From Sweltsa coloradensis (Eukaryota > Arthropoda > Insecta > Plecoptera > Chloroperlidae), in contig JAMZAV010000778.1 in assembly GCA_024449915.1 (NCBI GenBank), positions 124,001 to 188,000 on the forward strand: a stretch of DNA of 64,000 nucleotides, in the 5' to 3' direction. The number at the start of each line of letters is the position of its first letter. Within the stretch, counting starts at the first letter, position 1. The notes beneath the pieces are model-generated. The model ran no database searches and was not told where the DNA came from. It was given only the letters and a program-made list of their open reading frames with translations. The position numbers were made by a program, and so were the translations under genes. Shown here piece after piece: positions 647-60,061 of the stretch.

Positions 647-3600
647 GTACCACTCGACTAAATATTACAAATTACAAATTTCATGAAAAATTACAATGAT
701 AAATATATTAATTACTACAATTCAGAAATTAAAAAAGTCCGCCCCAACCGGGAATCGAACCACGGATCTCCCGCATTCCAGACAGGCGTCTTAACCACTA
801 GACCATCAGGACGGGCTACAATTCAGAGCTTAAAATGTACCCGTCCTGATGGTCTAGTGGTTAAGACGCCTATCTGGAATGTGGGAGATCCGTGGTTCGA
901 TTCCCGGATGGGGCGGACTTTTTTAATTTCTGAATTGTAGTAAATAATATCAATTACACCTACAGGAGTGTTTCCCGACTAAACAAATCGAGAAACGATA
1001 AATAATTGTTTTAATTGCTCCTATGTGGCCATAGGATTGAACGTGACATGTAAGTGATGGTTAATTTAAGGTTGGCCTTCTGTGAAAGATGTCTTATTTA
1101 CAAAAACAAAAACAAAATATATATAAATTATATTATCAATCAATTTAAAAAATCAAAATTTGGTTACGGTTTAATGTATTGTGTTTCAATTAAAAAACCT
1201 AACTGTCTCGTTAGCTTGGAGCCTCTGAAAGGCTACGAGGGCCAGGACATTGAGATCGTGCTTCCTGGTAACCTGACGGTTCACGATATAGACTGGCTGG
1301 CAGTGTGGTGCGTGCAATACAGACACAACTTCGGTCACGTGATGATTCCTAAAGGGCTGGATGTTCCTCCCGCGCTTGGGCAGACCAAGATAACGGTGAG
1401 TTCGATATTTTTATATTATTACTTGGTTTGGGAATGGTTTCTTTCACTTGTTGGATGAGCGTAGCGAGCGAAGCGAAGATTCCATTTCACTACACTGGTG
1501 AAAAAAATCCGGAATGTTTTTTTTTTTTTTCGTTTTTTTTGTATTTTTGTCTGTTTGTCCACACGATTCCGGCTAAACCGATACTCCGATTGCGATGAAA
1601 TTTTATGGATGCCTTTGAAATTTCTAAACTTAGAACTGCCACGTTTTTGAGCGCAATCGGAAAAATTTTTCTCATGAAAATCGCAATTTTACGATTTTTT
1701 TCGATTTTTAAAAATTTTCTTCGACTTATAACACCTACATGCTTTATCCGATTTTAATGATTTTTGCACAGAACCTTTATTTTATGAATTAAAATATTCT
1801 TGTGAAATTTGAGCGCAATTAAAAAAATATTTATCATAAAAATCGAAATTTTTCAGGTTTTTTCTTTTTTTAAACAATTCTTTGACTTATAACACCTACA
1901 TGCTTTATCCGATTGTAATGATTTTTTCGCAGAACCTTAATTTAATGAATTAATATATTAGTGTTAAATTTGAGCGCAATCGAGAAATTATTTCTAATAA
2001 TAATCGCAATTTTACGATTTTTTTAACAATTACGATTAATTAAAAAAAATTAAAAAAATAAGTTAATTTTTAATTTAATTTAATTTAATTTAAAAAAAAT
2101 TTCAACTTAGTAATGATTTTGCCACAGAACAACAGAAAATTCGCATAACACATGGCAGCTCAATGCACCAATTACGCTCATCCAACAACGCGGCGGGACT
2201 TAAGCGTTTTCCTGTTTAATATTACACTGTTTTTTCTAGATGAATTATTCATTACTAGGAAAACGCTTAAGTCCCGCCGCGTTGTTGGATGAGCGTAATT
2301 GGTGCATTGAGCTGCCATGTGTTATGCGGATTTTCTGTTGTTCTGTGAAAAAATCATTACTAAGTTGAAGATTTTTTTTAAATAATTTAAATAAAATAAA
2401 AAATAAACTTTAATTTTTAATTTTTTTAATTAATCGTGATTTTAAAAAAGAAAAAAATCGTAAAATTGCGATTTTCATAAGAAATAATTATTCGATTGCG
2501 CTCAAATTTCTCACGAATATATTAATTCATACAATTAAACTTCTGTGAAAAAATTATTACAATCGGTCAAAGCATGTAGGTGTTATAAGTGAAAGAATTG
2601 TTTAAAAAAAAAAAAAAGTGAAATTTAGATTTTCATGTGAAATAATTTTTGATTGCGCTCAAATTTCACACGAATATCTTAATTCATAAAATTATGGTTC
2701 TGTGAAAAGCTCATTAAAATCGAAAATGCATGTAGGTGTTATAAGTCGAAGAAATTTTTAACAAATCGAAAAAATTCGTAAAATTGCGATTTTCATGAGA
2801 AATAATTTTTCGATTGCGCTCAAAAACGTGGCAGTTCTAAGTTCAGAGATTTCGAAGGTCTCCAGAAAATTTTATTGCAATTGGAGTATCGGTTTAGCCG
2901 GAATCGTGGTGACAAACACACAATAATACAGAAAAAAAGAAAAAAAAAACATTCCGGATTTTTTTCTCCAGTGTAGTGAAATGAAATCTTCGCTTCGCTC
3001 GCTACGCTTATCCAATTACTGTCTCGGACCTATTTAATTAATGTAAAAATTGTCAAGTTTTAAAGTAATTAAGTAATTTTATTTTGAATCAATAGACCAT
3101 CAAAGTTTTCAGAACAAATTTGACTGTAGTTTATAAATTTGGTATTGTCTTTAACAATTCTTTGTAGCAATACATAAAATTTTTAAAAAAAATGTATTTA
3201 GAGTCTACCCACTCAGTTATATAACTGATTTTCAGTGGGGGACAGTAAATCAAAGCGACCAAGCCAACCCTGAAACCCTGAATGCTTAATGAGCTAATTT
3301 TATATTAACTTTCCCAGTGCCCACACAGCACACAATATCTTATGGATATCCATGAATGATCTACAATATCCACAATATCCATATCCATTATAAATATCCA
3401 TAGAACGTCCAAGGGATATTTAAAAATTGCCTGCTTATTCTACAATATCTTATGGATATCCTGTGGATATTGTTCATTAACGATTATTTTTCTACGCTGA
3501 AAATATCTATTAGATGTCCATGCAATATCTTTCAAATTTTCGCAGTTTAGATTTTTATATTTAAAAAATAAATATCAAATTGTGATGCAAAACGTGAAAA

Positions 3601-6600
3601 TTTACCATTTTTGGTTGTTTTTTTTTTTTACTATTTTAGTTTGTGGCTGGTATAATAAATTCTGCAATATATGGTTTGCAGGTAGTATTTCTCAAAACAC
3701 AATTTAAAATGTGTTTTTACAATGCATTCAACAAATGCATTAAATTTTTATTTTGATTGAAGTACCGATTAAACTATACATTTCTCTAAAAACTTATTGA
3801 AATCAAGTCAAGAAATAGTATTCATAACTAGTTTCGTACAATTAACTAGGGAAACGCCAAAGTCGTTGTTAAACGAGTGAGTGAGCCATGTGTTGAGTAC
3901 CCGGTTACATTACTTTTCTTCCCCTACATTAGGCCTACCTAACCTACCATAGCCTAGAGAGGCGCATTGGTCTTACAGTTGACGCGCCCGTATACCTACT
4001 AAACTTAAAAAAAAAACATTATTTATACGAATATAAATATCAAACATAAATGCAAATGTTCCCGGGTACTCACCACATGACTCGCTCACTCGTCTAACAA
4101 CGACTTTAGCGTTTCTTAAGTCTAGTTGGCTAAAGCGCCCTTAAGGCCGCTTTACACGGAGAAGTTGAAAAAGTAAAAAGTAAAAAGTGAAAAGAACGAG
4201 TAGGAAGAGAAAAAGAAATCCCCTGGTCGGGAAAGATTTTGTAATTCCTAAATTGTATTTAAAAAATTATTAAACATGTTTTGAAATGCATATAACGCAG
4301 TGTAGTCTATCATCTGTGACAATACTATGGAAAACATAGCCAGTACGAAATACGTGAAAATATTGCAAGGTTTACTCAATCTACGAGCGGAATTTGGGGG
4401 TACCTTGACGTCCAACATTCGACAGACCTTGCATGGGCACGGCTTTTCACGGCCAGGCGAAAAACAAACAAAAAATATCTTTTCAAAATCTAAAACATTG
4501 TCGTTAAAATAATTTCTAAACATTGGAAGTCTATTTTTCAGTTTATCATTTCTTGTAGATTTAAATCGCAATGAATCTTGCTGATTTTGTTAGCAGTTCT
4601 CAATAAACTCGTACCGGATGTCTGTTTAAAATTTTAGCGCAATCTGTTCAGCGATTCGGCTGATTTTCAACGTACACACACACACACACACACGCACGCA
4701 CGCAGAAAAACAATTAGGGCCGTTTAAGTCGAATGGAAATCACTACGTTCGCTACGCTCACTCGTTCAATTAAAGTTTTTTGTGATGTATAACCTTTTAG
4801 CAATACATTTGGTGAATAGTCACAATAATAAACATTCTGGAAATCATGTTGTTTACATATTATTAAAGCATAGAAGAGTACAGCATACAATTTTCGTTAT
4901 CGATGTTTGCAATTACATATTTCTTTCGTTTAGTTATTTCAAATGTAATTGTTTACATCATTTTGTCCTTTGATTTGACATTTTTCTGATATTTTTTTTC
5001 GTTGTTTTGGAGGTTATAGTTTTATTTGTTCACTTTTTTATTCTTGTGATTTCGTTTTATTTTGTTTGGAGGATTTTTATTTAAAAAAAATGGATGATTT
5101 TGTTGCTCCTCTAGGCTTTCATTTATTCATTGTTATTGTGATTTTTTAAATATGTTTCTGTACGAATTTTACATTTTCCAACACATTATTTTGTATTATT
5201 GATTTGACGTGGCAGTAATTTTTACGTAAAATAAGAAAGTATTCAAAAATCTCCTACCCCGCTAGCCATAAAATCACAATAAAGAAATTAATAAATAAAT
5301 AAATAAATCAATCAATCAAATTAGTTCGAAAGAAGTGTCTATCTGCACAGTCACAGAACTGATTTTCAGTTATCAACTCGACCAAGCCAACCCTGCCGGC
5401 GCCGATACCATCAACGAATACTTATGAATGTATTATTCTATAATAAATCAATCTTGTAAAGAAGATTCTAATTTTAAATACCTATATTCAAATAAATATA
5501 TATTAAACTTATTATGTAATCTAACCATCATCGGCATCTAATTCTTATTTGAGTTTCCTCAAATATTCTCGTTTGAAATGCTAGCCAATAGGATTAGGCC
5601 TACTCTGTAGCCTTAGTCAAATGTCGCATTGCTATCATTAAAAATTCAACCGTAATTATTATGATTTATGAAGCATTTAAATATTTCATAATCAAAATTT
5701 TAAATGTGTGTGATATTATTTAAAATATCATTTATAAATGTATTCAACACATGTTTTACAAGTAAGTGAATTAATGCAACATAAAAAGTCCTCATTTGAC
5801 GGCATTTTCCGACATTTTTCGAACTGTAACGATGCGCCGCGATGGAGTGAAATGTTCAGTGTACAAAAATCACAGAAGTATTTAAAGGTACGTGAAAAAT
5901 TGATACAAATTTGTGTAAATTAATAGTTGAGCATGCCACGCATGTAGCTAGGTCACGAATAGCTCTGAGGCCCTACCTAGGGACTGGGTGGGTATGTAAA
6001 TAACATTGTTGACAACCTAACCTTACTTGTGGCATTTCTTTTTCATGTTTCAACGGGCCCTAGCCCTAGCTAGGCTAGCCTAGGCCCCTACTATTTATTT
6101 ACCTATGCCTAGGGCTTGAACTTGGGGCGTACTTACCCTTTGGTCCTAGCTACCTTGGCTTAAGGACCTGGGTCTAGGCCTAGGCCCTAGTCTAGGAATC
6201 AAATGAATGCAAACTGCTCATAGGCAAAGCCTAGCCCTGGGACCTAGCCCACGTCCACGAAGGCCTAGGGCTAAGCCTATGATCTACGCCCTAGCCTAGG
6301 GCCAATTCATAGATATTTAACCCTTTACACCCAACTCCCCTGGGCAAGTGCCTAGGCTACCTACCAAACCTAAAACATTGGTTTACATTTTAAAACTGAG
6401 TGAATTTAAAAAAGTTCCCCACTTCTTTAATTGGATAGTGTCAAATCCTTCGTAGTGTATAGTCGTTGGGTGTCTAGTGTTAGACCCCTAGACCCTACTA
6501 GACACCCAACGGTATAGTCGTACGGTCAGCCGTACGACAGATCGATTTTTATAATGACTCGTTTATCAGGCGAGCCAAGTTTAGACTGGCCCCGCCCGGG

Positions 6601-15600: not shown

Positions 15601-18600
15601 TACTTTCTTTGTTCCTCCTAACCTCTCGTTGTGCAAGGCCTGTACAAACGAGGTGGTCGACGTTATTCCAGTCGACGCTATTCCGCGCTCCCTAATGCAC
15701 AGCCTATAGCTAAGGGAGAACTAGAATCTATTATAGCTATTTGTGACAACAGTTACTCATGTTTCAAAACAGTTACGTTACGTTTTTCGAGTAAAAGTAC
15801 TGCCTTTATTTAAAAGTAATAAATATACATGGAAACGTTTACCCTTTTTCGTTTTCACTTATCTGTAATAATATTTTAATGAAAGTAATTTAATTTATAA
15901 TTTATGTGAAATCGGATAAATGCTTGCTACCACTGCAGCGACGCAAACTATGTGTTTTAGAAGACGACCAGCATGAAAAGTGAGATTGTTATAAAACTAA
16001 TCTCAATGTGAATAGTCGTTTAAAATGAGCTTTGTGGTTACTTGTGATGAAAACAATCTAATATGCTTGTATATTCAAACATACAAATATGTAAAAATGC
16101 ACTTTACTGATCTTATAACGTTATCATACTGTGTTTTGGACATATTGGAAATAGAATAAAATGATTTTGATTTAATGACGAATGATTTTAAACGAGTTTG
16201 TACATGTTTCAGGTCCGAGATGGTCGGTGGAGACGTGGTGGTCGCCTTCCACGACACGGATACTGGGGCGTTCAGAGCGGTGGATTACTACATGTCAGCC
16301 ACTGCACAGGTGAGGGGGGGGTAACAGATGAGGGGAGCTTTCAAGCCTTGGGATACAAGCGTCAGAATATCTTTCAAAGCCGGAAACATTACAATGATGA
16401 TGATGATGATGACATACCTATTTTAGAGGGATTTTTTCCTGCAACCAATTGTCATCTGATTGATATGAAATTTTGTATGGTTGTCAAGCAAGGATATGGT
16501 CACTCTTCTATAGTCAAAGATTACTAAACATTATTTCAGATTAGCCACAAATAAATTCAAAATTGTACCATTTTTGATGATTTTACAAACATCCAAATTT
16601 AATTAAAATGTTACAAGTACCTGTGTGTTCTTTTAATGTACATCCATAGAACGCTATATATACATGGCCAAAATATATGTGCAAAGTTTAGTATCAATCT
16701 GATAAATACTGGCTTTAGGAAGTGGTTTTGAAAAAATTCACTAGGCTAGTAATGCAGTGAAATAAAAGAAAATTGTTAGTTATTTTAATGTGGAGTGACA
16801 ATGATTTGTTATATTATTTAAGAACATAACTGGGACCGACAAAATAAAAGATAAACCTTATTGCAACAAGAGTGTCCAATCACAAACTGTTGTTTGGTCA
16901 CAAACTCATTTGCTTCTTCGCTTACGTCACAAAATTGACAATTATTCTTACGGAACACTTTCCCTTGCAGTGTGACGGTAAGAACGGCGTATGTCCCGAC
17001 GAACGAATCGGAGGCAAGAACGACGTGGTTTTCATCTCCGGTTCTCGGAATAACGGTGTCACCATCGTCAAGTACAGCAGACCCCGACAGACCAACGAGC
17101 CGATCAACGACAGGGCGATTCCTATCGACAACGAGGTGAATGTGATCGCAGCCATTGGTCCGCTCAACAGCCGTAAGGAAGCCAACGCGCACGCCATTCC
17201 CGACAAGACCACAGGTGAGCAGGCTAGAATGTAGTGTTAACAGCCGTAAGGAAGCCAACGCGCACGCCATTCCCGACAAGACCACAGGTGAGCAGGCTAG
17301 AATGTAGTGTTAACTAGGAAAACGCTTAAGTCCCGCCGCGTTGTTGGATGAGCGTATATGGTGCATTGAGATGCCATGTGTTACGCGGATTTTCTGTTGT
17401 TCTGTAAAAAAATCATTACTTAGTCGAAGATTTTTTTTAATAATTAAATTAAATAAAAAATTACTTAATTTTTATAATTAATTAAATTAAATTAAAAATT
17501 AACTTAATTAATTGTTTTAATTTATCGTAATTTTTTTTTAAAGAAAAAAATCATAAAATTGCAATTTGCATAAGAAATAATTATTCGATTACGCTCAAAT
17601 TTAACACGAATATATAAATTCATGAAATTAAAATTCTGTGAAAACATCATTACAATAGGATAAAGCATGTAGGTGTTATAAGTCAAAGAATTGTTTTAAA
17701 AAAGAAAAAAAACGTAAAATTTTGATATTCATGAGAAATAATTTTTCGATTACGCTCAAATTTCACACGAATATCTTAATTCATAATTTAAGGTTCTGTG
17801 AAAAATCATTACAATCGATAAAGCATGTAGGTGTTATAAGTCGAAGAAATTTTTAAAAAGAAAAAAAATCGTAAAATTGCGTTTTTTATGTGAAAAAATT
17901 TCCCGATTGCGCTCAAAAACGTGGCAGTTCTAAGTTCAGAGATTTCGAAGGTCTCCATCAAATTTCATCGCAATCGGAGTATCGGTTTAGCCGGAATCGT
18001 GTTAACAAACACACAAAAATACAGGAAAAAAAACAAAACATTCCGGATTTTTTTCTCAAGTGTAGTGAAATGGAATCTTCGCTTCGCTCGCTACGCTCAT
18101 CCAATTATCAAGAAAACTAGTATGAATTCAAGGTTTTTAAGCATAAGCCCGCTTTGAGGACATTATTATTGAATCATAACAATTCTCGAAAAAGTTTGCC
18201 CCAACTGGGGATCGAACCAGAACCTCCAACTTTACGTACCGATGCGCTATCCGGGTCTTAGACAAACCTTTACTAAATTATTATATATTTATGATAAGAT
18301 ATAAATGTTTTTTAAAAATGTGGCGTGAGAGAAACTAGCTTAGGCTCAATTCATTCCTCTCTTCAGGTATCAACAATATCATATCAAAACTATCCCGTAG
18401 TTATTAAGTTAGCCGGCTCGGTGTCCGAGTGGTTAAGACGTCCACCCGGCAAGTAGGAGAACCGGGTTCAATCAACGGTAGCATCAAAATTTTGTTGATT
18501 CAGGATTTTATTACATATTATTTGCATTTAAAAAAATAAAAATAAATGTATATAGCAAATTCCCGGTTGTGTTTTTTTAAGTGGTCTCAATCCTTACCAT

Positions 18601-21600
18601 TCGCCGTTACGATAAGTAAAACGGTAAACTTTCAGTCATGATATTCAATAACGAGTATCAAACCTAATAACTCCCAAATTAGTATTGCGTATGACGCTTT
18701 CTGTTTGCTACAACTTTTTTTATTCATATATTATACAAACAAACATAATACATTGTTTCTCGATTTGGTTGATCGGGAAACACTCCCGTGGGTGTAATTG
18801 TTTTTATTTACTACAATTCAGAAATTAAATTTCTGAATTGTAGTAAATAAAAATAATACATTGTATGAAAGCTGATCGTTTAAAAGTATTGTTTCAATAC
18901 CATTTGATCACTAGGTGAGAACACGTAAGTCACGTCTGCAACCTCTACACTACGACCACAAATAACTGATTTGAGCTTTAATCAGCGTTTTGTAAACCGA
19001 AGTTTTATAAAAAACATACAAAAAATTTTTCATGTCTCTGTAAGACGATCGGAATAAAGATTAAAAGTTCCTGTAATCAAGTGTATCATAGAATCATTGC
19101 CGTTATCAAAATTCAAAACAAAACATAATTAGTATAAATTGTCATTAAAAATATGCTATTATAATATTAAGTAATGTTTTTTCATATTCGCATTAATAGC
19201 TTTGTGTACGTTGTAAATCAGTTTCATTGTTGATAATTTGTAATTAATATTGTGCCCATTTATAAAATAAATGTGGCATGTTTTTACTAAGAAGTCCGCA
19301 GAGGATAGGATAACTTCGGTGAAACGCTAACTGCACAGAATATTGTGTTTATAAATAAAACTAATATATTTTAAATTATATATAATTGTGTTGTATATAA
19401 ATAATGTTGGTCTTTACTGAGTGGAAGAATCGCATTTATTTACTCGAGTGACATTTGACATTCGCAGAGTACGCTTACCCGGCACCTCCACCAAACACAT
19501 ACCAAAAACCAACTGTCAGTTGTTTTATTTAGTAGATTTAGTTTTTTCCGTTATTGTGTACAATACTCGGTTCTTGGATGAAACCGCGTCAAAGTGATGA
19601 ACCAGTGCAGAGACTGGGCGTCCACCGACGTTTCGTCTGATCTACGTCAGACATCTTCAGGGTGACTGACTTCACAAAAGTTCGTCACAGTGGCGCGCAC
19701 GCGCGCGGACGCCTCCTTATATAGACCTGAATAGGTGCGGGGTGGCGAGGTCATATTGAATATCTACGTGAATGTTTTTTGTAATATTAGTATTTAGTAA
19801 AGAAGACATCATTATTTATTTTACACACACATACACAATATCCACAATCCATATGGATGATTCTCTTCTCTCTCCCCACAGAGGACATCCGGATAGACTT
19901 CAGCACCCGCAACGACCACTCGTGCGTGACGTCACTGTTCGAGGTGCCCGAAGAGAACTCGGTGCAACCCTGGCCAGCGGCGAGGATAACCGACGAGGCT
20001 GTCTTCTCTGCTCGCATCGGTCCCACCGGGGGCAAGCGGGGGTACACCCCCATCACCGGGCAGCCATCTTGGGGCATCGCCTGGTACATCAACGATATGC
20101 TCATCCCGGAGCTGTACGTGGAGAGGGGCCAGACTTACACCTTCATTGTGGAGGGAGGTGAGTTATAAGGCTGTTTTTCATCCTAGTTTACCCTAGAAAA
20201 AAAAATACAAAATTATCATGTGGTACATTTTGCTAGCAACATGTCACCTACAATATGTGGCTCGTTGGTCTTGTTGTTAGCGTATCTGCTTCCAATGCAT
20301 AAGGTCCAGGGTTCGATTCCCGTCAAACTCAGAAGTTTTTTAACTTCTGATTTGAACTTAAGGCCATCAGTTCGTGTCTTAGGAGTTTGTAAACGGTGAC
20401 TTTGGAGCCGTCCTAGCAACGAAGCACATAATACATTCAGAGTTGTTCTGAATCAGCCTGTTGATTCTGGCATTGATCCGCGGGTGTTCGCACTGTCCAT
20501 ACCACTGATTGCTATATTCTATAAAATATCGATCTTTGGTTGGTTATCGTCACTCGTCGATTACGTCGGGGCCTACAGGGTTGGCTTGGTCGCTTCGATT
20601 TACTGTCCCCCACAGAAAATCAGTTATATAACTGAGTGGGTAGACTCTAAATACAACTTATTTATTTGTTTGTTTCTCGATTCTTTCTTAAAGGGGCTTT
20701 ACTTACCGCTTAATCTATAGCGTAATACGACAATAAAAGTGCCGTTTAAAAAATATATATCTTATAACTGAGATTTGAAACGAATTTGTTAAGCTTTTTA
20801 ATCCTGCAAATTGAGCAAATTGACGATTTAAAGAATTTCTTTAACCTGCTTAACGTTTCTTCTTTGTTCCACATAGATACTAGAGCATCGTACCAATCTA
20901 AAATGGCCCTTTATATAACATCGTGTCTGGAAACTGTGAATGAGTGAATGCGGGTGAATGTGAATGCATATATGCCTAAATATGTATATTTAATATACAC
21001 TCAAACGCAATAATATGCATTCCGAAATTACATCCCTTCTTGGTAATCAGCATAATATTTTGACCTAACCATTTGCCCAACAAAGACAAAATACAGCGGA
21101 TTAACTGAAAGACTGACGAGTAAGTCAATAATGATCAAAGTTTTTGGATGTAAATCCTTCAAGGTCACGGTGCATAAAGATCGTCCGCTTTCTTGTGAAA
21201 GATTTTTGCAAATGGGATAGCTGACAATTTTTTTTACAGGTTATAGTGGATCCAATAATTTGTCTATCCAGTAAATTCATAACTAGTTAACCTGAATGAA
21301 ATTAGTTTTTAGGTTTAGCGGGTGAATACCCCTTTGAATGAAAATGTTAGTAAATTAATTGAATGACTATATTATTTATGTTTCAAAATAGTATGCAGTT
21401 CAGAGTTTAAGAGTAAACTTCCACCATTTATAAAGCGGTACTGTCATCGAGAGAGGCTAAATACTAAATAGTGTCCAACTCACTGGATGTTAGATAGATA
21501 TTAATCTTGATGAATGTTTTAGGCAACGACGGCACCAACCCTGCCCGGTATCACCCGTTCTACATAACCGACAGCAAGGAGGGGGGGTACGGACAGAAGT

Positions 21601-24600
21601 CCAACATTGAACAAGAGAAACAGCGTGTCTATGCGGGGGTTGGCTACGATGCGGAGAACTATCCGTACCCAACAGCAGGTGAATAAAAATAACTCATATT
21701 TAATAACTACAAAGATTAAATCTAACAAAAACTAAGGAAAGCTCTAAAGATTGTCCATTCATATTAAATAAAGAATTAAAATTAAATAAAGGTTAGTGAG
21801 TAAATATCAATATACCTACTTGCTCCAACGAGAGAATGCAGATGCTTTGTAGTGGTGAGGGTAGTATGTTTCGAGCTATCTGCATTCTTTCGTTGGGACC
21901 ACTATATCTTAGTATCCTATCAAATTTATTTAAGATGGGTGATGGGGAGTATTCTAAGGAAAATAAGATAATGAGAAAATGTATTTCAATTTACACTTCG
22001 TTCCTAATTTTATGTTGCAATGCACTTAATTCTGTGGTAACATTATGTTTTAATATTGAATTAATCTCAATTTGTAATTGTTTTTCGCTTTTGGCTAAAG
22101 CACCCAAAAATAGTTTTATTTTTTAATTTAATGTAAATCTTTTTTAAAGCATAAAACTCTAATTGAATAAAATAAGTTAATTTTAAAGTAGAAGAACAAG
22201 CAAAGTATCAAACTTGAAATAAATGCACACGTTTCAGCTGGCCGCTACTGCGAATGGGCGCATAAAAACATCGACCGGTCAATGGAAAGTGAAACGTTCG
22301 CCGCCTACTTCGAGACCCTGAGGTTGATGTGTGATGAAGGTGAACCTGCCTACCTGAACTGGACGGTACTACCAGACACCCCCGACCTACTGTACTATCA
22401 GGTACGTGCGTGCGATACGAGGGCTTAAGTCCATCAGGCTTAGGAATGTCTAAACGGTGACCTTGAAACCGTCCTAGCAACGAGACCCTGAGGGTTGATG
22501 TGTGATGAAGGTGACCCTGCCTACCTGAACTGGACGGTACTACCAGACACCCCCGACCTACTGTACTATCAGGTACGTGCGTGCGATACGAGGGCTTAAG
22601 TCCACCAGGCTTAGGAATGTCTAAACGGTGACCTTGAAACCGTCCTAGCAACGAGACCCTGAGGTTGATGTGTGATGAAGGTGAACCTGCCTACCTGAAC
22701 TGGACGTAATACAGATACCGCCGATATTCGTACCTATCAGGTACGTGCGTGCGATACGAGGGCTTAAGTCCATCAGGCTTAGGAATGTCTAAACGGTGAC
22801 CTTGAAACCCGGAAACCGTCCTAGCAACGAATTAGCCTTCAATTAGCCTGGTTGATTCTGGTACTGTCCGCGGGTGGAGTCGTGTCCAACTTGATTGATC
22901 GGTGTTTCCTACTTAAATACGCCGGTCTCTATTGGTCATTGTTCGCTCGTCGATGGTGTCGACGCCTACAGGGACGTTAGCTTACCTGCTTTAAATTTAC
23001 TGTCCCCCACTGAAAATTAGTTATGTGGCTGAGTAGGTAGTCTCTAAATACAAATATGTTTTATTTATAGTACATCTTATACAAGCATAATTTCCAAATA
23101 TAACTTATTTGTGTATTGTTGAAATAAAATGTTACTGGTTCCTTAAAACATTAAATAAATAAAATTAATGCGATATTTCGGGAATTCCCATCCCAATACC
23201 CTCTATAAGCAAGAATAAAAATAGAAATACTTGAAATATCGCATTAATTTTATTTAATTAATGTTACAAAGAACAAATAAAAGTCTTAAAATTGTATTAC
23301 AATATAACCTATCATTCTAATTATCTCAGCATGTATATGAATTAGTACTGTTTTTTTCTTCAATACAGCATTATTATTATTATTATTAGGTATACACTTC
23401 TACTCCGCTTTATCATATTATTATCTTATCACTCACCCATTTACTTATTTGCATTTTCAGTTTCAGTTTACTACTTTTTAAACACATGAATTTTAGTACG
23501 CTATTTCCCGTTTTGTATTGAAACTTAACTTATGCCGTAATATCGTTATTTTATATCGACATTGTACATACTATTTGTGTAATAAATACCTTTTGTGATT
23601 GGTAGTTTATAGGTTTTTGTACTAGTGAAAAAAAGTGATGGTTATTTTAATAATTAGATTTTAAAATGCCTATATTGTAGTTACGGTAAATTATTATTGT
23701 TGAAATGGGATATAATATAGTAGGGATGGGACGTTTAAACGTTTAGTGGACGGTTAGAGGTTATTAAACTCTCAAAACGTTTAGTAAAATAAAATAAAAT
23801 AAAATAAAATGTTATTTGCTATCACTTTCGGAGTCGACACAAACACGGGCTAACAAATTAGGCCGATAATTTTCTAAAAAAAGCTTACATTTGGTGGAGG
23901 TGCCGGGTCATTAAATGCGAGAGTGAGAATAAAACCGTTGTTAATTATTCGTCGGCCGGTCATAAGTACAAAATTACGATTTTTATTGTAAAACCTAGGC
24001 TTTCGCTTACCTAAAAAAAAAAATTGATATGGGCTTAAAACGTTTAAACGCGATTTTTTCAAGGGGTTAAACATTTAGGAAATTGAACGCTTTTTCCCAT
24101 CCCTATAATAAAGCTAAGCTATCGTTATTATAATGCTACCGATGTCATAATAAATATCATAATAATTATGATAAATAATTTTAAAATAATTCAGTATAAA
24201 TTTTGTAAATGGTTTCAGTGCTACACCCACAACAACCTAGGGTGGAAGATCTTCGTAGTGAACAAAGGTTTTAACTACTCCAAAAATAATTTTGAAAATG
24301 GGATATAATATAGCCAAGCTATGGTAATTATTTAAAAAATTATATATGATAATGCCGATTGTCATCATAATAATGTTAACACACGCACAAGCACACGCAC
24401 ACGCACACGCACACGCACACGCACACGCACACGCACACGCACACGCACACGCACACGCACACGCTTATTGTTTTCTGTCATTATGTAAATGTACATTTTA
24501 GGAATTTTATTGTTATGTATTGTTATTATGTTTAGATGCTCTTTTCTAGCAACCTATTAATAAGGTAATAAAAAAAGCTATTTCAAAATTTCTCGAAATC

Positions 24601-38415: not shown

Positions 38416-39602
38416 TTAAACGAGGGAGCGAAGCAACTGAGTGTCTCCATTTAACTCAAACGGCGCTCATTCTGCGAGTCTGTGTGTGGGTCTGTCCGTA
38501 TGTACGTTGAAAATCAGCCGAATCGCTGAACAGATTGCGCTGAAATTTTAAATAGACATCCGGTACAAGTTTGAACTGCTAACAAAATCAGCAAAATTCT
38601 TTATTGAAAAATAGGCTGCTAATTGGATGAGCGTAGCGAGCGAAGCGAAGATTCCATTTCACTACACTGGAGAAAAAAATCCGGAATGTTTTTTTTTTCT
38701 TTCTTTCTTTTTTTTTTGTATTTTTGTGTGTCTGTTAACACGATTCCGGCTAAACCGATACTCCGATTGCGATGAAATTTTATGGAGGCCTTCGAAATCT
38801 CTGAACTTAGAACTGCCACGTTTTTGAGCTTAATCGGGAAATTTTTTCTTGTAAAAAACACAATTTTACGATTTTTTTCGATTTTTAAAAAAATTCTTTG
38901 ACTTATAACTCCTACATACTTTATCCGATTGTAGGGGGCCTAATGATTTTTTCACAGAACCTTGATTTTATGAATTAAGATATTCGTGTGAAATTTGAGC
39001 GTGATCGAAAAATTATTTCTCATGAAAATCGAAATTTTACGGGTTTTTTCTTTTTTAAAACAATTCTTTGACTTATAACACCTACATGCTTTATCCTATT
39101 AAAATTATTTTTTCACAGAACCTAAGTTTCGTGAATTTATATATTCGTGTAAAATTTGAGCGCAATCGAATAATTATTTCTTATGAAAATTGCAATTTTA
39201 CGATTTTTTTCTTTTTTAAAAATTACGATTATTTAAAAAAATTAAGTTACTTATTTATTTAATTTTATTTAATTAAAAAAAAATCTTCGGCTAAGTAATG
39301 ATTTTTTCACAGAACACCAGAAAATCCGCGTAACACATGGCAGCTCAATGCAACAACGCGGTGGGACTTAAGCGTTTTCCAAATGTGTAGAAATTATTTT
39401 AACAACAATGGTTTTGTTTTTGAAAAACTAGGGAAACGCCAAAGGCGTTGTTAAACGAGTGAGTGAGCCATGTGTTGAGTAGGACTACCCGGTATCATTC
39501 CGGCTAGATCCAGCCTTAGGTATAGGGGAGGAAAGGGGATGTTCCCGGGTACTCAACACTTGGCTCACTCACTCGTTTAGCAACGACATTGGCTTTTCCC
39601 TA
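38416..39602 (+). mobile_element. Helentron-like family H3, copy 2, interrupted by H1
   Basis: The 5' end TTAAACGAGGGAGCGAAGC and the block GAAAATCAGCCGAATCGCTG match copy 1 at 3846-4769. The 3' end is CTCACTCGTTTAGCAACGAC...TTTTCCCTA. H1 copy 4 occupies 38623-39380. The last 175 bp (39428-39602) are palindromic, as in copy 1. Confidence 0.45.
38623..39380 (+). mobile_element. Helentron-like family H1, copy 4
   Basis: TTGGATGAGCGTAGCGAGCG opens the copy and CAACGCGGTGGGACTTAAGC GTTTTCC closes it. The internal inverted copy of the 5' end has been lost (the sequence jumps from CAGCTCAATG to CAACAACG), and the terminal CTAG is mutated. Confidence 0.6.
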
Positions 39603-39609
39603 TTTTTAT

Positions 39610-40400: not shown

Positions 40401-40404
40401 TAAT

Positions 40405-40809: not shown

Positions 40810-43800
40810 CTGTAAGAAAAATTAATTACTTAAAGAAAATGCACACTATAAAGAGGTAAATTAAGCTAGGGTATGTATTATAATAATAAAACTAATATAT
40901 CATAGGATAACAGGCATACCGGTACCGGTATGTAAAAAATATAAACAAGAAGTTGGTGGCGTCACAAAATGTCACCTGAAGACAATGCAATAAAATTAAT
41001 TTGGGTACTTGTTCATAAGAGGGACACCCCCCCGAAAAGCAAAGAAGGTTAGTGGGGTTGAGGGGGGGCCGCAAAGCGCCGTAGGGGGCCGTGGGGGGTA
41101 TAGGCGCTTTGCGATCCCCCCGCCCAACCCCACAACCTACTTTCCTTTTTGGGGGGAAGGGGGGCTTATAATGAACAAGTACCACAAATTCCTTAGGCCC
41201 ATGCATGGCACGCTCCGCTGCCATAAGAAGTGGCCGAATATCTCGATCTGATCAGAAATCAACTCTTCAACATTTAGCCTGGCTATATTTTGACTGTTTC
41301 TTAAACAAATATCGAAAACGAAGGCACCTCAGATAGAAAATACAACAAACTACAACATATAATAGGCCTTCATGAGCAAATGTAGGCAGGGCTCGACAAA
41401 TTTTTAAAAATCTACTGAAAAAAAAATCTACAACTGGGCAAAAAATCTACAAAAAAAAGAAAAAAATCTAAAAACAATCTACCAAAAAAATATAGGTACA
41501 GCGGTGCAAGTGGCCCAAAATTTTGTTGCCCAGACTCAATTCAAGGCTGACACAATAATTTTTTTTATTTTTACATATGTAGGCCTACGACAATTTTCTT
41601 TATTTTAACAATAGCCACGAATCAATAACTTTACCGACTTTACGTACCGTACCCGCTTTTTATCATACTCTCGGTCATATTTTACTTTTTTGGCAGGTTC
41701 ATTAGCTAGGTCTAGCCTAGGCAATGATAGGCCTATCTCATCTTCGTTAATTGTGAGTGGCTTAGTAGCCGTAGGCCGAGACGTTGAAGCTACTCCACTA
41801 GGCCTACAGTTAAATAAGTTCCGTAAATCCATTTAAGAGTTTTACTAGGAAAACGCTTAAGTAACGCCCCGTTGATGGATGAGCTTTTTGTAAGTTTTTA
41901 GTTTGCGTAGGACCACTTTTTCTTTGCAAGTGCTTTTTGAATGCATTGTAGGTGATTGTTGTAAAGTTTCTAAAATGTTACTTGTTAATTGTTATTATAA
42001 ACCTCAAAAAAACTCATATTAAAACCTTTATTCTATGGATTCTGGCTAACTTATTCAACTTTTTCTTTCGGAAAGCAATACATCACCATTACCTTAATGT
42101 CCATGTAAAATATGAACGTTGTAGCCCCACCCGTTTGGTCAGAATAGGCCCAAATGTCACAAAATAGTGCACTTAAAATCAAAAAAATCGTAAAAGAACG
42201 ATATTCATAAGAAATATTTCTTCGATTGTACCCAAAAACGTGGCAGGTGTAAGTTCAGAGATTTCGAAGGTCCTTTCCAATTTTCATCAAGTTCGCATAT
42301 GCCGTTTGCCCAATAGCGTGCAAACAAACAGACAGAAAAAAAAATCATTGGAGCTAAATGTTTTGAGGGTTCAGTGAAATTGAAGTCTTCGCTTCGCTCA
42401 GCCAATTACGCAATGGTTTTGAAGTGTCAAAAATGGTTGGAATGTCACGAAACGGGAGAAGGTAAACATGTCTCAGATCTCCATTTTCTTTACAGCTGTG
42501 AATACTAAATCATGGGTAAAGTCGATAGGTCGATAGCGATCGGAATGCGATTGGAAGTGATGCGTGGTGCAGCCTTGGCAAGTCTTGGAACTACATCGAG
42601 CGTCTGTCGCCTGTCGATAAAGTAGGTTTCTACTTAATGAAATCTTTCGCGATTCGAGTTTTTAACCAAATTTGTTGGGGCAACTAACTATTAATTATGG
42701 TTGACCATGCCTGGAGTGTTAGTTGCCCCGGGAAACTCGGGCATAGGAAATTTAGAGCCCTGGTAGGGAAATGTGTCAATAAACATTTACCGGATAAGCT
42801 ATAATGATAAATTAGTAGGAGTGGCAGAATGCACGCTGATAGGGCTGCCCAAGGATTAAAAAAATCATATCGATATCGATATCATCAATATCGTGATTCG
42901 ATATCAAACTTTTCAAGTCGAGTATCGATATTGATTTTTTTTAAACGTGTTATTACGTTCTTCGGCAATGTAGACATGCCACTGTCCATCCCAATCGAGA
43001 GCGGCAGATTCAAGTTTAAGATAAGGCCTAGGACAAGAAGAACAATCACAACAATACTTGCGGCAGCCCTGCGAAGAGATAGAAGCAAACTGATTTCTCT
43101 CTCTCTCTCTCTCTCTCTGTCTGTCTGACCATAGACATCCCATATAATTGGCTTGACTAGCAGTCAGCGGTCCACTTCCGGGACAATTGGAAGCCATCTT
43201 GAATGGGTGAGTGTGCATGTTAATTAGATGGGAGCGATTAATCGAAAAAATATTTTTAAAGATGGCCGCCTGTTTGGCAGGTGAGCATATCAGACTTTAA
43301 CACCAAATGATTACTAAATTCCCGTATGCAATAACTTTGCATTGTTTCTGTTTGTTCAATACCATGCTGCACAAGCTAAAACCATATCAAACAATCCAGT
43401 AAAGTACGGTACTTTATTGCATTAAAAAAGCATAAATTAAAACGCCAAGCCGCCATCTTGAATGGGTGAGATTGACGCCTCAATTTGGTACACTCGCGCC
43501 TGTGCGGAGGTATTGGAGACTGCATATCTAGCCTGCTATAGGTGTTAAGATATCTATGGTCTGGACACTGTAGTGTAACAACTTGAGCTGCCTTATGCTT
43601 TGCTGATATGAATGAGATTGCACATGAGGTCTTGTTATCTTATCACATAGGCCTAAGGCCTAACATAAATAAAACAAAGCAGCAAGAGTCTTGGCCCAAA
43701 GCCAAACTGACTAGCAAAACGCCTATGTAGTTGGTGGCGTGGGAGGGGGGGGGGGGGGGGACAGCGCTGCAGAACCATAACTTACTGCCACACCAAGCAT

Positions 43801-44857: not shown

Positions 44858-44895
<38 letters not shown>

Positions 44896-47800
44896 AAATA
44901 ATAATAATAATAATCCGATGAGCAAAGCGAAGAGTTCAATTTCACCGACCCCCCGAAAAATTTAGACCTAGCTCGAGTGTTTTTTTTTTTTGTCTGTCTG
45001 TTCGCTCTCTAACGGGCAAAGGGCATGCGATCTTGATGAAAATTTGAGGGGACCTTCGAAATCTCTGAACTTAGACTTGCTACGTTTTTGGGTAGGCCTA
45101 CAATCGAAGAAATATTTCTCATGAATATCGTACTTTTACGATTTTTTTCGATTTTTAGTGCGATATTTTCGTGACATTTGGGCCGATTCTGACCAAACGG
45201 GTGGGGCTACAACGTTCAAATTTCACATGGACATTAAGGTAATGGTGATGTATTGCTTTCTGAAAGAAAAAAATGAAAAAATTAGCCAGAATCCATAGAA
45301 TAAAGGTTTTAATATGAGTTTTTTTAGGTTTATGATAACAATTTACAAGTAACAATAGAAACTTGACAACAATCACCTACAATGCATTAAAAAAGCACTT
45401 GCAAAGGAAAAGTGGTCCTACGCAAACTAAAAACTTTAAAAAAAAAGCGCACCCATCAACGTGGCGGGACTTAAGCGTTTTCCTAGTAATTTAGGCCTAA
45501 TTGGATGAGCGAAGCGAAGACTTCAATTTCACCGACCCCCCAAAAATTTAGCTCGGGTGTTTTTTTTGTTTTTTTTTCTGTCTGTTTGTTCGCTCTCTAC
45601 CGGGCAAACGGCATATATCCGATCTTGATGAAAATTGAAGGGGACCTTCGAAATCTCTGAACTTAGACTTGCTACGTTTTTGGGTACAATCGAAGAAATA
45701 TTTCTCATGAATATCATACTTTTACGATTTTTTTCGATTTTTAGTGCGATATTTTGTGACATTTGGGCCGATTCTGACCAAACGGGTGGGGCTACAACGT
45801 TCATATTTCACATGGACATTAAGGTAATGGTGATGTAGGCCTATTGCTTTCTGAAAGAAAATGTTGAAAAAGTTAGCCAGAATCTATAGAAATAAAGCTT
45901 ATAATATAAGTTTTTTGATTTTTTGTACGATATTTTCGTGCCATTTGGGCCAATTCTGACCAAACGGGTGGGGCTACAACGTTCATATTATACATCTACA
46001 TTAAGGTTATGGTGATGTAGTAGGCCTAACCTTTTGAAAGAAAAAGTTGAAAAAGCTAGCCAGAATCCATAGAAATAAAGCTTTTAATATAAGTTTTTTA
46101 CAGTAAATAATACCAATTGACAAGAAACAATAGAAACTTGACAACAATCACCTACAATGTGTAGGCAGCAAAACAAAGCACTTGCAAAAGTAAAGATATC
46201 TTACGCAAACTAAAAACTTTAAAAAAGCTCATCCATCAACGCGGCGGGACTTTAGCTTTTTCCTAGTGATATTGTAAAACATACCCGCTTTGAGCTCCTC
46301 CCCCCCCCCCCCCTCCCCCTAACCTACTTTTCCAACGTTGGGGCATTCCAACCGAAAGAGTACCGGGCCTAGGGCCTGTAGCGGCATAGCCTATTCTACA
46401 ACCGGCTTTGAAGAATGCGCTTACTAGGCCTAGTGTAGGCTAGGCCCCAGAGCCTACTAGGCTGCTAGTGATATATGGGCGAAACCCAAGTCGAATTCAA
46501 TGAAGTCGATTTCAACCAAGACGCTTTGGCGTGCGTGATAAATGTAGACCCAGGGCTTAAGAAGGCGGATGCACAATTGCCCGGTAACGATAACGGAAAG
46601 ACGCTAACGTTAAGGTCTTCGATGCACAATAGCCCGTGAAGCGGACGGGAAGAAATAAAATGTAAGGTTGGTTAGCATGTATTTTTTTTATTAATTTGTT
46701 GCACATTTGCATAGGCCTACACCACAGCCTTTCTGAAATACCTTCAGATGATACATTTATTGGATGAGCAAAGGTAAGACTTCAATTTCACTGACCCCTC
46801 AAAAAAAAAATTCCGATTTTTTTTTCTGTCCGTTTGTTTGCGCTCTACCGGGCATATGGGATCTTGATGAAAATTGGAGGGGACCTTCAAAATCTCTAAA
46901 CTTAGACCTGCCACGTTTTTGGGAGTAGGCCTACAATCGAAGAAATATTTATCACGAATCACGTAGGCTACTTTTACGATTTTGTTCGATTTTTAGTGCG
47001 ATATTTTCGTGACCTTTGGGCCGATTCTGACCAAACGGGTGGGGCAACAACGTTCATATTTTACATGACATTAAAGTAATGGTGATGTACCGTAAATTGC
47101 TTTTTGAAAGAAAAAACTGAAAAAGTTAGCCAGAATCCATAGAATAAAGGTTTAAAATATGAGTTTTTTTAGGTTTATAGGCCCTAATAACAATTAGGCC
47201 CTAACAAGTAACAATAGAAACTTGACAATCACCTACAATGCAATCAAAAAGCACTTGCAAAGGTAGGCCTAAAGTGATCCCACGCAAACAAAAAACTTAC
47301 AAAAAAGCTCATCCATCAACGCGACTAAAAAAAGCGTTCGCGAAGCGGCCTAGTTAAATTCCGTTTTTTTTAACACTGCTACACTTTTAACAGGCCGCGG
47401 ACATCTTGATTCCGATTGGTTCCGGTAACATACTGGACGGGAACAAACTTGGTGAAGTTCCAGTTCTCGTTACCGGGATACGGCAACGGGAAGCTTTATT
47501 GTGCTTAGTGTCGTAAGTTAGGCTAACGTGTGAGAAAACTTTGGTACTTTTTCGGTTGGTAGGCCTATGGACCGGTTTTTTAACACTGCTTTTTTCCAAT
47601 AAAAAACACTGTAAAACAACTACCGGTAGGCCAGTAGCCTAGTTTTGTAACAAAAAGGATTTCCGGTGCGCTTTTATAAAAAATATCATAGCTAACTAGC
47701 GCACAGGTAACTAGTCCGGAAAGGTCGACTAACCTAACGTTAGTTTTGTAAAACCAGTCCATACCAACCGAAAAAGTTCCTAAACTTTCTTCCCGTTATC

Positions 47801-49192: not shown

Positions 49193-52100
49193 GTATGTTG
49201 GTCTGCAAAAGTTCTGACTTGCACTAACCCTAGGGCTACGCACAAGCCGGATCACCGTAGGCCTAGGAACAGCATTGCTTTGTGGGGAGCTTGACAAATT
49301 TGTAGGCTGGGGAAGGGATATTAAATACACAAAGGCTGGGGCCTAGGCCCATTTGGCCTGACCGCCTAGGTCCTAAGGTGGCCTTAAGTTTTTTTTTTGT
49401 ATTTCATCTTCCTGCACCTAGGCCTAGCTAGGCTTAGCCTACTCTTTCAGTTGGCATGCCCCAACATTGGAAAAATAGGTTAGGGGGAGGGGGACGAAGC
49501 GCGTATGTTTTACACACCGCCGTCTGGATGTATGTAAGATACAAATAAGCTGCTTGTTGTGGCTCCGATTTCCCCATGTTAAATGATTAAAGCATCATTC
49601 ACATTCAGTTCTAAGTCGTAAGGCGCAAGGTCTAAGGCGTAAGTCGTAAGAAATGCTAGGCGTTTACAACAACCATACCATTTTTCATTGCTCCTGTGTA
49701 TTGCGCATGCGCGTACAGTCAGCTGTGGAGTTTCCTTGTTCGTGATTGGCTCGTCGTAAGAAACCGTCGTAAGAATTGGATTTTGGGCAATTCGTTACGA
49801 CATAAACCATACGCCTTGCGACTTGGGACGTGTTGTGAACGTTCTGATTGAAATACATACTCGGCATTAGCAATTCAAATTATTACGCCTTAGGCCTTGC
49901 GCCTTACGACTTAGAACTGATTGTGAATGATACTTGACATGCAAAAGGTAGAGCTTTGTCGGTCTGCCGCTAGATAGGGTTAGTTAAGGGGGGCGGAAGT
50001 AGAGAGCGTCTCTAGGCGAAAGTAGATTTATTTAAGGTTTAGAATTGGGCCTTATGGACTTTTAATTAATAAATAATAAAGATGATAATGATATTTTAAT
50101 TTAGTTGGAACGTTTTATATTGAGCAACTGTTGACTTTCCATGCATTATGACAACAAACTCAAGTAAGTAAAGGAAGTTTCACAGATTTAGTTCCAGCTT
50201 TGAACCATAGATGGTGTTAGTTAAGGGGGGCAGGAACTTCATTATCGACTGAAAGTTCACTGAAAGTCATGACCAAATTTTGTTGAGCCACGACAAGCAG
50301 CTTATTTGTATCTTACATACATCCAGACGGCGGTGTTTTTACACTAGGAAAACGCTAAAGTCCCGTCGCGTTGTTGAGCGAGCACCGGTACGTGCAACAC
50401 GACCCGAGTACGACATTCCCATAATGTTGCATACCAATAATAATCCTGTCAAATAAGAATTTTTGGAGGAAAAAATTGCGATGTCGCTGAATTTTTGCAG
50501 AGACCTTCCTTAAATGATACTTACTAGGAAAACGCTTAAGTCCCGCCGCGTTGTTGGATGAGCGTAATTGGTGAATTGAGCTGCCATGTGTTTTGCGGAT
50601 TTTCTGTTGTTCTGTGAAAAAATCAGAACTTTGTTGAAATTTTTTTTAAATTAAATCAAATTAAATAAAAAATTACTTATTATTTTTGATTAATCATAAT
50701 TTTAAAAAAGGAAAAAAATCGTAATATAGAAATTTTCATAACAAATAATTATTCGATTGCGTACAAATTGTACACGAATATATTAATTCATAAAATAAAG
50801 GTTCTGTGAAAAAATCATTACAATAGGATAAAGCATGTAGGGTTATAAGCAGAAGAATTGAAAAAAAATCGTAAAATTGCGATTTTAAACGGAAATAATT
50901 TTTCGATTGCGCTTAAATTTCACACGAATATATTAATTCATAAAATTTAGGTTCTGTGAAAAATTCATCATCTTCGGTTAAAGCATGTAGGAGTTATAAG
51001 TCGAAGAAAGTTTTTAAAAATAAAAAACATCGTAATACTACGATTTTCATGAGAAATAATTTTTCGATTGCGCTCAAAAACGTGGCAGTTCTAAGTTCAG
51101 AGATTTCGAAGGCCTCCAGAAAATTTCATCGCAATTGGAATATCGGTTTAGCCGGAATCGTGTTAACAAAGACAGACAAAAATACAGAAAGAAAGAAAGA
51201 AAGAAAGAAAAAAAAAAAAAAAAAAAACATTCCGGATTTTTTTCTCCAGTGTAGTGAAATGGAATCTTCGCTTCGCTCGCTACGCTCATCCAATCAACAT
51301 ACTAAAACTCCCCTACAATCGGACTGGAGCTTCGGCCGCCATATTGGAAAATGGCGGCCAAAAGTGTTTGTTATCGAATATCTCCAAATTTGTTTGAGAT
51401 AGACAAAATATCTCAATGGTAAAAATATTCCCCATTTAATTCCCTACAAAACAGGTGTCTTCTATAGTTTTGGTAGGGGCAAAGGTTACGTCACAAAATC
51501 GTGGTTTTTATGTTGCTTATTGGAGTACCAGCTAATTTCAAAATTTTCACGCCCAGCATCAAACAATGCCCAGTAAATCCGTAAGAAATCGATTTAAATA
51601 CAAAAGGACTTTTGTACGGGGTTCATGAAAGCTTCCATTAGTATTTTAAAAAATCAGTTCTGCGAAATCGGATTTTGCATTTACCGGAATTTGAGTTTTT
51701 CCATTGTTGGCATTTCCTAAAAAATGCCATATTTTACTGTCCATTATTAAGCACTAAATAGCATTGGAGGAAAAATTATTTCTACGCACATTGAAATGAC
51801 TTAAATAATGATCCGATTACAACCAAAGTTTAAATCCAATATGGCTGCTAATTCCTAATATTCACAATATGATTACTGTTTTCGTGCTGTTTTTACACTC
51901 TTTTTGCTACATAATTCACTTGTTTGTTGTGGATATTAGGAATTAGCAGCCATATTGGGTTTAAACTTTGGTTGTAATCGGATCATTATTTGAGTCATTT
52001 CAATGTGCAAAGAAAGAATTTTTCTTCCAATGCTATTTAGTGCTTAGTAATGGACAGTAAAATATGGCATTCTTTAGGAAATGCCAACAAAGGAAAAACC

Positions 52101-55100
52101 CAAATTCCGGGTAAATGCAAAATCCGATTTCGCAGAACTGATTTTTAAAAATACTAATGGAAGCTTTCATGAACCTTGTACAAAAGTCCTTTTGTATTTA
52201 AATCAATTTCTTACGGATTTACCGGGCATTGTCTGATGCTGGGCGTGAAAATTTGGAAATTAGCTGGTACTCCAATAAGCAACATATAAACCACGATTTT
52301 GTTACGTAACCTTTGCCCCTACCAAAACTATAGAAGACACCTGTTTTGTAGGGAATTAAATGGGGAATATTTTTGCCATTGAGATATTTTGTCTATCTCA
52401 AACAAATTTGGAGATATTCGATAACAATCACTTTTTGGCCGCCATTTTCCAATATGGCGGGCGAAGCTCCCGTCCGATTGTAAGGGAGTTTTAGTATGTT
52501 GATAAGTACTATCCTTTAAGGAAGGTCTCTGCAAAAATTTCAGCGACATCGCAATTTTTTCCTCCAAACGTCAATATAGGCCCGATCTTATTTGACAGGA
52601 TTATAAGTCTTTAAGGTCTTGACCGATTTAGCTGAAGATTTGTGAAATAGGAGAGAATGGATAAAATCCACCGCCATCTAGAGGACCTTGACATCATTTC
52701 TTGGGAAAACTATTTTAACTCTTTGATAACAAATAATACGCTTTGATAGTATTTTGATTACTTCTAGGTGGCAGTGCATAGTGACCAAAATTCTCGTTGC
52801 CATGGTAACGTCCTACTTTTGTTAGGTAAAATGTAATTGGATGAGCGAAGCAAAGACTTCAATTTCACCGACCCCCCCAAAAAATTTAGCTCCGTTGTTT
52901 TTTTTTTGTTTTTTTTTTGTTTTTTTTTTTGTTTTTCCGTCTGTTTGTTCGCTCTCTACCGGGCAAACGGCATATGCGATCTTGATGAAAATTTGACACG
53001 ACCTTCGTTTTCTCTGAACTTAGACTTGCCACGTTTTTGGGTACAATCGAAGAAATATTTCTCATGAATATCGTACTTTTACGATTTTTTTCGATTTTTA
53101 GTGCGATATTTTCGTGCCATTTGGGCCAATTCTGACCAAACGGGTGGGCTACAACGTTCATATTTCACATGGACATTAAGGTAATGGTGATGTATTGCTT
53201 TCTGAAAGAAAAAGTTGAAAAAGTTAGCCAGAATCGAGAGAAATAAAGCTTTTATAGGCGCTCCACGCTAAGAAAGGAGTTGCGCGCGCTTTTAACGGGT
53301 GAATTGTAGCCATTCAGCAGGCTCCAATTTAAAATAACGATCGCTGATTGGCCCGTCGAAAGCGCGCGCATCTCCTTTCTTAGCGTGGAGCGCCTTTAAT
53401 ATACGTTTTTTTACTTTTTGCGCGATATTTTCGTGCCATTTGGGCCAATTCTGACCAAACGGGTGGGGCTACAACGTTCATATTATACATGGACATGAAG
53501 GTTATGGTTATGTAGTACCTTTTGAAAGAAAAAGTGGAAAAATTTAGCCAGAATCCATAGAAATAAAGCTTTTAATACAAGTTTTTACGGTAAATAATAC
53601 CAATTGACAAGAAACAAAAGAAACTTGACAACATTCACCTTCAATGCGTAGGCAGCAAAACAAAGCACTTGCAAAAGTAAAGTTATCCCACGCAAACTAA
53701 AACCTTTAAAAAGCTCATCCATCAACGCGGCGGGACTTTAGCGTTTTCCTAGTTTCTATCTACACTACTTAAGGTCTTGACCAATTTAGCTGAAAATTTG
53801 TAAAATAGGAGAGAATGTTGTACTTATTGACCCTGCAAAATTTCATAACGATCGGAACATTTAATTTTTTTATTTTAATTTTTTATAACCAACGATCGGA
53901 TTTTTTTCAAAAACTATATAGCAACCCGCATAGGTGGTATGTACATGTGTGCAAAATTTCAGGTTGATCAGAGAAACGGTGCGACCTGTAGGCCTACCGA
54001 AGCAGTACCTAACAGAAAATAAGAAAAAAAACAGACATTCGAGCCATAAGAGTCAAGTGGAGACGCTCGCTAAAAAATAATCAATATTATTAAATTAGGC
54101 CTATAAAAAAGGGCCTACGGTAGGCCTATTATAAATTATTAATACATAGGTAGCCTATGCGCTTCGCATCCCCCCCCCACCCCGCTTGAAAAATTGGGGC
54201 ATGCCAACCAAAAGAGTACCTACCCAGTACAAGTGAGACCTGGGTTTACTTTTTCCCTAAAAGGAGTTTGTAGGGTGACGATGATTTTTGTTGCTTAACG
54301 TCTCATATTACTGCACTAATGCTACCGGTATTGGAGACGGTGAATGGTGATAGATGACGATGAAGGACATTTACTAAAAGCCATGTTTATGTGGGATTCG
54401 AACCCATGTCCTCATAGAGCCATAGCCTAGGTCAAACAACCTTATCAGTGTCGACACATTGCACAGCTTGATTCCATTAGGGCTAGGTACCGTACACTCA
54501 CTTCCTTGCAAACGAGTTGCCTGACAGTAACCCCACCGCGATGCGTGATAATGATGCGGCATGATGGTGATAATCATCAAGAAGGCAGTGACACCTACAC
54601 TTTGGAAATTATTAGTAGGCCTACCGGAGAGATTCTTTGTATGCACGTGACGTCACAAACATTGTTGGCTGACATAGGCCTATTGCTGTACGTCAGGGAT
54701 TGCCATCTCAATAATAGGCCTAGCGGCCATATTCCCATAGGCCTACATGAAGGCATTGTCAAAGCCTCAATCAGTGAGCAACAAGTGTTATCTCACTTTT
54801 ACTGTAACACAAGTCACAAGCTCAAGCTGACGATATGCTTGATAATATTATAGACCTATGTAAAAATTTGATTTATCGGTTGAGAACATTATTATGACTG
54901 GACATGCTATAGGCCTACATAGGGGAGGCCTACATATGATCAGTATACTAATTATTAGTTATTAACTTATTAGGTGGGCCTACCTACTAGTTTTTATAAT
55001 ATTAGGCCTAGGCTATTGGGCATGCTTGACAATGAAAATAATAATATATTTCCACTATAATATTATAATAGGCCTATGTAGGGGCTCTAATGTAGAAATG

Positions 55101-60046: not shown

Positions 60047-60061
60047 ATTAAATTAAAAAAT

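Follow-up and report, generated by a model that had tools for sequence, protein, structure and literature searches.

The question raised by this locus is to which class of mobile DNA its dispersed repeats belong. Within a window of 64,000 bp from the plecopteran Sweltsa coloradensis (contig JAMZAV010000778.1, positions 124,001 to 188,000), an earlier note had described three repeat families with shared ends, H1, H2 and H3, and had likened them to non-autonomous Helitron2/Helentron elements. Pattern scans of both strands, complemented by repeat finding, bear out the three families and yield 12 copies, five of H1 (H1a-e), five of H2 (H2a-e) and two of H3 (H3a-b). They range from 427 to 924 bp, counting the nested H1d apart from H3b, and add up to 8,607 bp, which is 13.4% of the window. 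We conclude, with a probability of about 0.85, that the copies represent non-autonomous members of the Helitron superfamily, presumably mobilised in trans by a Rep-helicase (an HUH nuclease) whose gene lies elsewhere.

The first line of evidence comes from the ends. With all copies read in one common orientation, the elements can be written as TTGG...CTAG or TTAAACGAG...CCCTAG: TT is found at the 5' end of 11 copies out of 12, the exception being the degenerate H2b, which begins with TC, and an exact CTAG closes nine of them, being eroded in H1a, H1d and H3b. The positions previously listed as starts are indeed element ends, but five of them (2255, 3846, 17314, 41845 and 50524) turn out to mark the CTAG terminus of copies lying on the reverse strand, and the start given for H2b, 44915, falls one base inside its degenerate 5' end, which reads TCCGATGAGC from 44914. 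As to chance matches, five block shuffles were searched on their plus strand: of the six end patterns, four never occurred, while the H3 5' pattern averaged 1.6 matches per shuffle and the subterminal pattern of 11 bases 0.6.

An inverted copy of the start, expected some 30 bp before the other end, is present in 10 of the 12 copies: 8-11 of the initial 11 bases are matched by an inverted stretch that lies 23-37 bp before the 3' end, and in nine of these ten, at most 6 of 500 shuffles contain a pair as good. Between this inverted repeat and CTAG, a stem of 4-5 bp, formed by AACG or AACGC and its partner, appears in nine copies in a listing made without a shuffle control. A stem of the previously proposed AACGC...GCGTT kind recurs in most copies only: it is broken in H2c, and H3a and H3b list a different one, 17 bp from the end. 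Folding of four of the twelve 5' ends gave no hairpin better than shuffles, and a 5' hairpin was rejected on these grounds.

Self-matching inverted pairs bear on a reading that also lies within the superfamily, namely that the copies are canonical non-autonomous Helitron1 elements whose inverted repeats are incidental. Their CTAG end and A-T target (see below) are those of Helitron1; however, they start with TT rather than TC in 11 of 12 cases, and the inverted pair is found in three families, its sequence differing between H1/H2 and H3 and yet matching within each of the 10 copies. We regard this reading as rather unlikely.

The second line of evidence concerns the insertion site. Flanks of all 12 copies were joined and used to search for empty sites; the matches obtained for H1e and H1d were kept, the other spanning matches being discarded by eye as the copy's own flank, a neighbouring copy or weak AT-rich similarity. 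The cleaner site is that of H1e. It sits in one arm of a long inverted repeat, and its joined flanks align with the other, uninterrupted arm (124 columns, 93.5% identity), the join reading GTTGA^TAAG (the caret marks the insertion point). For H1d, which has an eroded end, the joined flanks match part of H3a (102 columns, 75.5%), and the join reads AA^TG. At both sites A is joined to a single T, so that the insertion between two Ts suggested earlier has to be rejected. The flanks agree: position -3 is T in all 12 left flanks (binomial p 9.5e-07), -2 is A in nine (p 0.003), -1 is A in 11 (p 3.1e-05) and +1 is T in 11 right flanks, the exception being the eroded H1a (p 2.6e-05), all these being single-column values uncorrected for the 16 columns viewed. 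The T earlier noted after CTAG is thus confirmed, and the target is T-N-A^T, unlike the T-rich target of Helentrons. As anticipated in the earlier note, no target-site duplication is seen at the H1e empty site, bar one ambiguous T: with the element taken as TTGG...CTAG, no base is duplicated at the joins.

The same sites argue against a narrower label, whose odds overlap those of the superfamily assignment, by which the families would be HINEs derived from true Helentrons, elements encoding a Rep-helicase-endonuclease and inserting in TT or T-rich DNA. Subterminal inverted repeats, found here in 10 of 12 copies, a 3' stem and the lack of a clear duplication are in keeping with HINEs, as is the internal tandem repeat of all five H1 copies (unit of 150-161 bp, 2.0-2.4 copies). 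Empty sites with a single T, flanks reading T-N-A^T instead of T runs, and a terminal CTAG, described as Helitron-like (PMC4067079), do not fit, and make this label unlikely.

Another rival takes the copies for cut-and-paste miniature inverted-repeat transposable elements (MITEs), moved by a DDE transposase, whose inverted repeats are imperfect and whose target duplication measures 1-2 bp. In its favour, the copies are short, non-coding as far as scanned and bounded by an inverted repeat on either side, and one duplicated T (or AA in the case of H1d) is formally compatible with it. Here, however, the repeat occupies the extreme 5' end and yet stops about 30 bp short of the 3' end, CTAG combined with A^T insertion has been published as the signature of Helitrons (PMC4067079, PMC4778049), and no duplication of at least 2 bp is present at H1e, AA being conceivable only at the eroded H1d. 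Duplications can be recognised in this window: a nearby element bounded by terminal repeats of 52 bp does show one of 6 bp. The MITE explanation was rejected, and survives as a weak and very improbable rival.

Compared with the described groups, the elements mix canonical Helitron traits, the A^T target seen at two empty sites and a 3' CTRR in the form of CTAG, with asymmetric inverted repeats of the Helitron2 type, which are defined as lying within 0-2 bp of the 5' end and about 20-30 bp away from the other end (PMC3627910) and have a 3' offset of 23-37 bp here. The hairpin overlapping the 5' repeat in Helitron2 did not appear in the four 5' ends folded, and the TT or T-rich insertion of Helentrons is contradicted by the two empty sites and the T-N-A^T flanks. 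We therefore assign the families to the Helitron superfamily and not to Helitron1, Helitron2 or Helentron proper, because each of the three failed in one of the features tested. What stands of the original label is a non-autonomous rolling-circle element with asymmetric inverted repeats; its Helitron2/Helentron part yields to the A^T target and to the four folded 5' ends, none of which has a hairpin better than shuffles.

Several observations weigh against this assignment. The 5' TC of Helitron1 is replaced by TT in 11 of 12 copies. H1d and H2b have no recognisable inverted pair, and that of H2a is weak, being equalled in 49 of 500 shuffles. The 3' stem is short, and missing or different in three of 12 copies; moreover, the 3' ends of four copies, folded as DNA, are not more stable than shuffles, so that the hairpin is supported by its recurrence and not by energy. 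Empty sites number two, both with caveats: a 3-base gap interrupts the H1e alignment four bases past the join, and H1d ends in CCAAA rather than CCTAG, which makes a 2-bp AA duplication possible for this copy alone. A 1-bp T duplication is indistinguishable, as the element begins with T and a T adjoins its end; the same ambiguity is stated for Fusarium elements (PMC5148889). Finally, no Rep-helicase gene with these ends was seen, and of 220 open frames listed (58 aa or more, low-complexity excluded) the Pfam scan at E 0.01 covered 134, the remaining 86 lying chiefly inside the repeats. On the supporting side, the scanned frames gave no match to a Rep, a helicase or a DDE transposase.

For a reconstructed bat Helitron, it is reported that insertion takes place at AT, that circles are formed and that a 3' hairpin serves as termination signal (PMC4778049); if this is applied by analogy, transposition might proceed as follows. 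A Rep protein would nick the 5' end at A^TTGG, and its helicase would peel off one strand; the 3' stem, along with the inverted copy of the start flanking it, may mark the end just before CTAG, where a second cut would release a single-stranded, possibly circular copy. This would then be joined between the A and the T of a T-N-A^T target, with no duplication.

We regard the families as new non-autonomous members of an established, intermediate-looking type: every one of their parts has a precedent, and so has almost the entire mixture. Four groups of described elements come closest. Proto-Helentron-Pi of Phytophthora infestans, the published Helitron-Helentron intermediate, for which an empty site is reported, has 5' TT, 3' CTAG and A^T insertion with no duplication, as here (PMC4067079). 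It is, however, a coding element of about 14 kb, whereas the present copies measure 0.4-0.9 kb and have no transposase match, and it is described as having a typical Helitron structure, the subterminal inverted repeats present here being unmentioned in the section that describes it (PMC4067079). Helitron-like elements of the oyster Crassostrea gigas share the CTAG end, the hairpin, the A^T target (86%) and subterminal inverted repeats (257 of 751), have a mean length of 1,092 bp and are termed possible intermediates by their authors; they differ in starting with TC and in their mollusc host, and a T at -3 is unmentioned in the text compared (PMC7992393).

Asymmetric inverted repeats and a TNAT target are likewise features of FoHeli1 and FoHeli2 of Fusarium and of related Chaetomium elements, the latter having no 5' hairpin, as here (PMC5148889). 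In contrast to the present CTAG, these fungal elements end in ATTTT, and FoHeli1 and FoHeli2 have hairpins at both ends; the base next to the Fusarium target is A according to the text and T according to a legend, against T in six, A in four and G in two of our 12 copies (PMC5148889). HINE/DINE-1 elements and the oyster Cg_HINE are, like the elements described here, short and non-coding, with subterminal inverted repeats, a 3' palindrome and central tandem repeats, the last being reported in HINE-type elements, but their target is T-rich or TT instead of T-N-A^T (PMC4067079, PMC7492417).

As to the relationships within and among families, the aligned columns are 87-92% identical between H1 copies, 85-93% between H2 copies (ten pairs each) and 71% in the single H3 pair, values suggesting that the copies probably did not insert very recently. 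The bodies had been said to differ between families. This does not hold for H1 and H2: local scores over their first 260 bp are 131 and 135, whereas 200 shuffles reached no more than 35 and 39, ruling out unrelated bodies and indicating, at the level of sequence similarity, a kinship of their 5' parts that goes beyond the ends. It does hold for H3, which is at most weakly related to H1 (scores of 31 and 31, shuffle maxima 29 and 28) and H2 (21 and 22, shuffle maxima 24 and 33). A fourth family, H4, is represented by a lone 3' end also featuring AACGC...GCGTT, 30-33 bp of which are shared, at 88-94% identity, with all five H1 and three of the H2 copies, eight of the twelve in total; its 5' end was not found, a pattern search giving 5 matches versus 9.2 expected. 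Exact end-motif scans gave no matches in viral contigs (four patterns) or in prokaryote genome contigs (one pattern), as expected for an animal repeat.

In both H3 copies, an inverted copy of the 3' module lies directly inside that module, with arms of 61 and 53 bp in H3a and H3b, respectively, so that CTAG-like ends point outward on both sides. Given that the two copies share just 71% identity, the palindrome is likely to date back to the ancestor of H3. That it is part of H3 is more likely, though not proven, than an independent insertion: it occupies the same end, in the same orientation, in both copies, and beyond 39603, likeness to the H3a body stops within about 30 bp, as judged by eye. 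The joined H3b flank gave one weak match to the H3a interior (E 0.045), read as low complexity. A more far-reaching reading, less likely than not, is that these families belong to a living animal lineage intermediate between canonical Helitrons and Helitron2/Helentron, with a T-N-A^T target like that of fungal Helitron2-type elements, in which the inverted module of H3 could offer the Rep protein two exit signals.

The combination of T-N-A^T, CTAG and asymmetric repeats in apparently one animal genome bears on how the termini of Helitron1 relate to those of Helitron2/Helentron, and detectors tuned to TC...CTRR or to TT-flanked HINEs may overlook such families. Apart from this mix of terminal features, the content is that of ordinary transposons.

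Table 1. Helitron-like copies, derived modules and empty sites in the window (positions are those of the window)
Feature	Position	Strand	Remarks
H1a	1451..2213	+	5' TTGGATGAGCG; 3' end eroded (CCT, then GT)
H1b	2255..3015	-	5' end at 3015, CTAG at 2255; tail to tail with H1a
H3a	3846..4769	-	5' TTGAACGAGTGAGCG at 4769; CTAG at 3846
H3a palindromic 3' module	3846..4120	.	arms aligned over 61 bp
H1d paralogous empty site	4480..4580	-	within H3a
H1c	17314..18104	-	
H3b	38416..39603	+	split by H1d; terminal CTAT
H1d	38623..39383	+	nested in H3b; no 3' inverted repeat; CTAG eroded
H3b palindromic 3' module	39428..39603	.	arms aligned over 53 bp
H2a	41845..42405	-	
H2b	44914..45486	+	degenerate 5' end (TCCGATGAGC)
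H2c	45501..46266	+	broken 3' stem
H2d	46760..47353	+	additional bases separating 3' stem from CTAG
H4 lone 3' end	50344..50384	-	stem, CTAG, GAGCGAGC repeat
H1e	50524..51293	-	sits in one arm of long inverted repeat
H1e paralogous empty site	52443..52566	+	opposite arm of inverted repeat
H2e	52837..53752	+	

The tail-to-tail pair H1a and H1b (1451-3015) is separated by about 40 bp. The long inverted repeat hosting H1e in one arm extends over about 50440-52612; its inner part is 95% alike over 576 columns, and its outer ends have ATAATCCTGTCAAATAAGA in common, as judged by eye. The element adjoining the H4 3' end spans 49514-50336: its 52-bp terminal inverted repeats are 98% alike, and the 6-bp duplication, TTTTAC, was recognised by eye.

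Among the scanned open frames, DM13 is matched by one (45.2 bits, cut-off 25), DOMON by one slightly below the cut-off (31.4 of 32.7 bits) and BCCIP by two (best E 6.7e-23); five more Pfam families, matched by one frame each with E of 0.0014-0.0057, look like chance. DM13 together with DOMON presumably denotes a Skeletor-like gene. Judged by these genes, the host would probably be an arthropod. The frame at 19791-20165 has no Pfam match of its own, but 119 protein relatives, including one of Timema poppense, and a few of them carry DOMON; the best is 72% identical over 75% of the frame.

Matches to tRNA-Ser (GGA) are found at 739-813 (-), 842-916 (+) and 24645-24719 (+), with a common 3' extension, GGACTTTTTTAATTTCTGAATTGTA, and partial relatives lie near 7555, 12100, 18800 and 60400: this group is probably a family of tRNA-Ser-derived short interspersed elements. 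Two tandem arrays were also noted, at 22311-22809 (171-bp unit, 2.9 copies) and at 30748-30953 (37-bp unit, 5.5 copies), along with a dispersed repeat at 221-316, 3177-3272 and 60053-60148, the second and third copies being 92% and 61% identical to the first.

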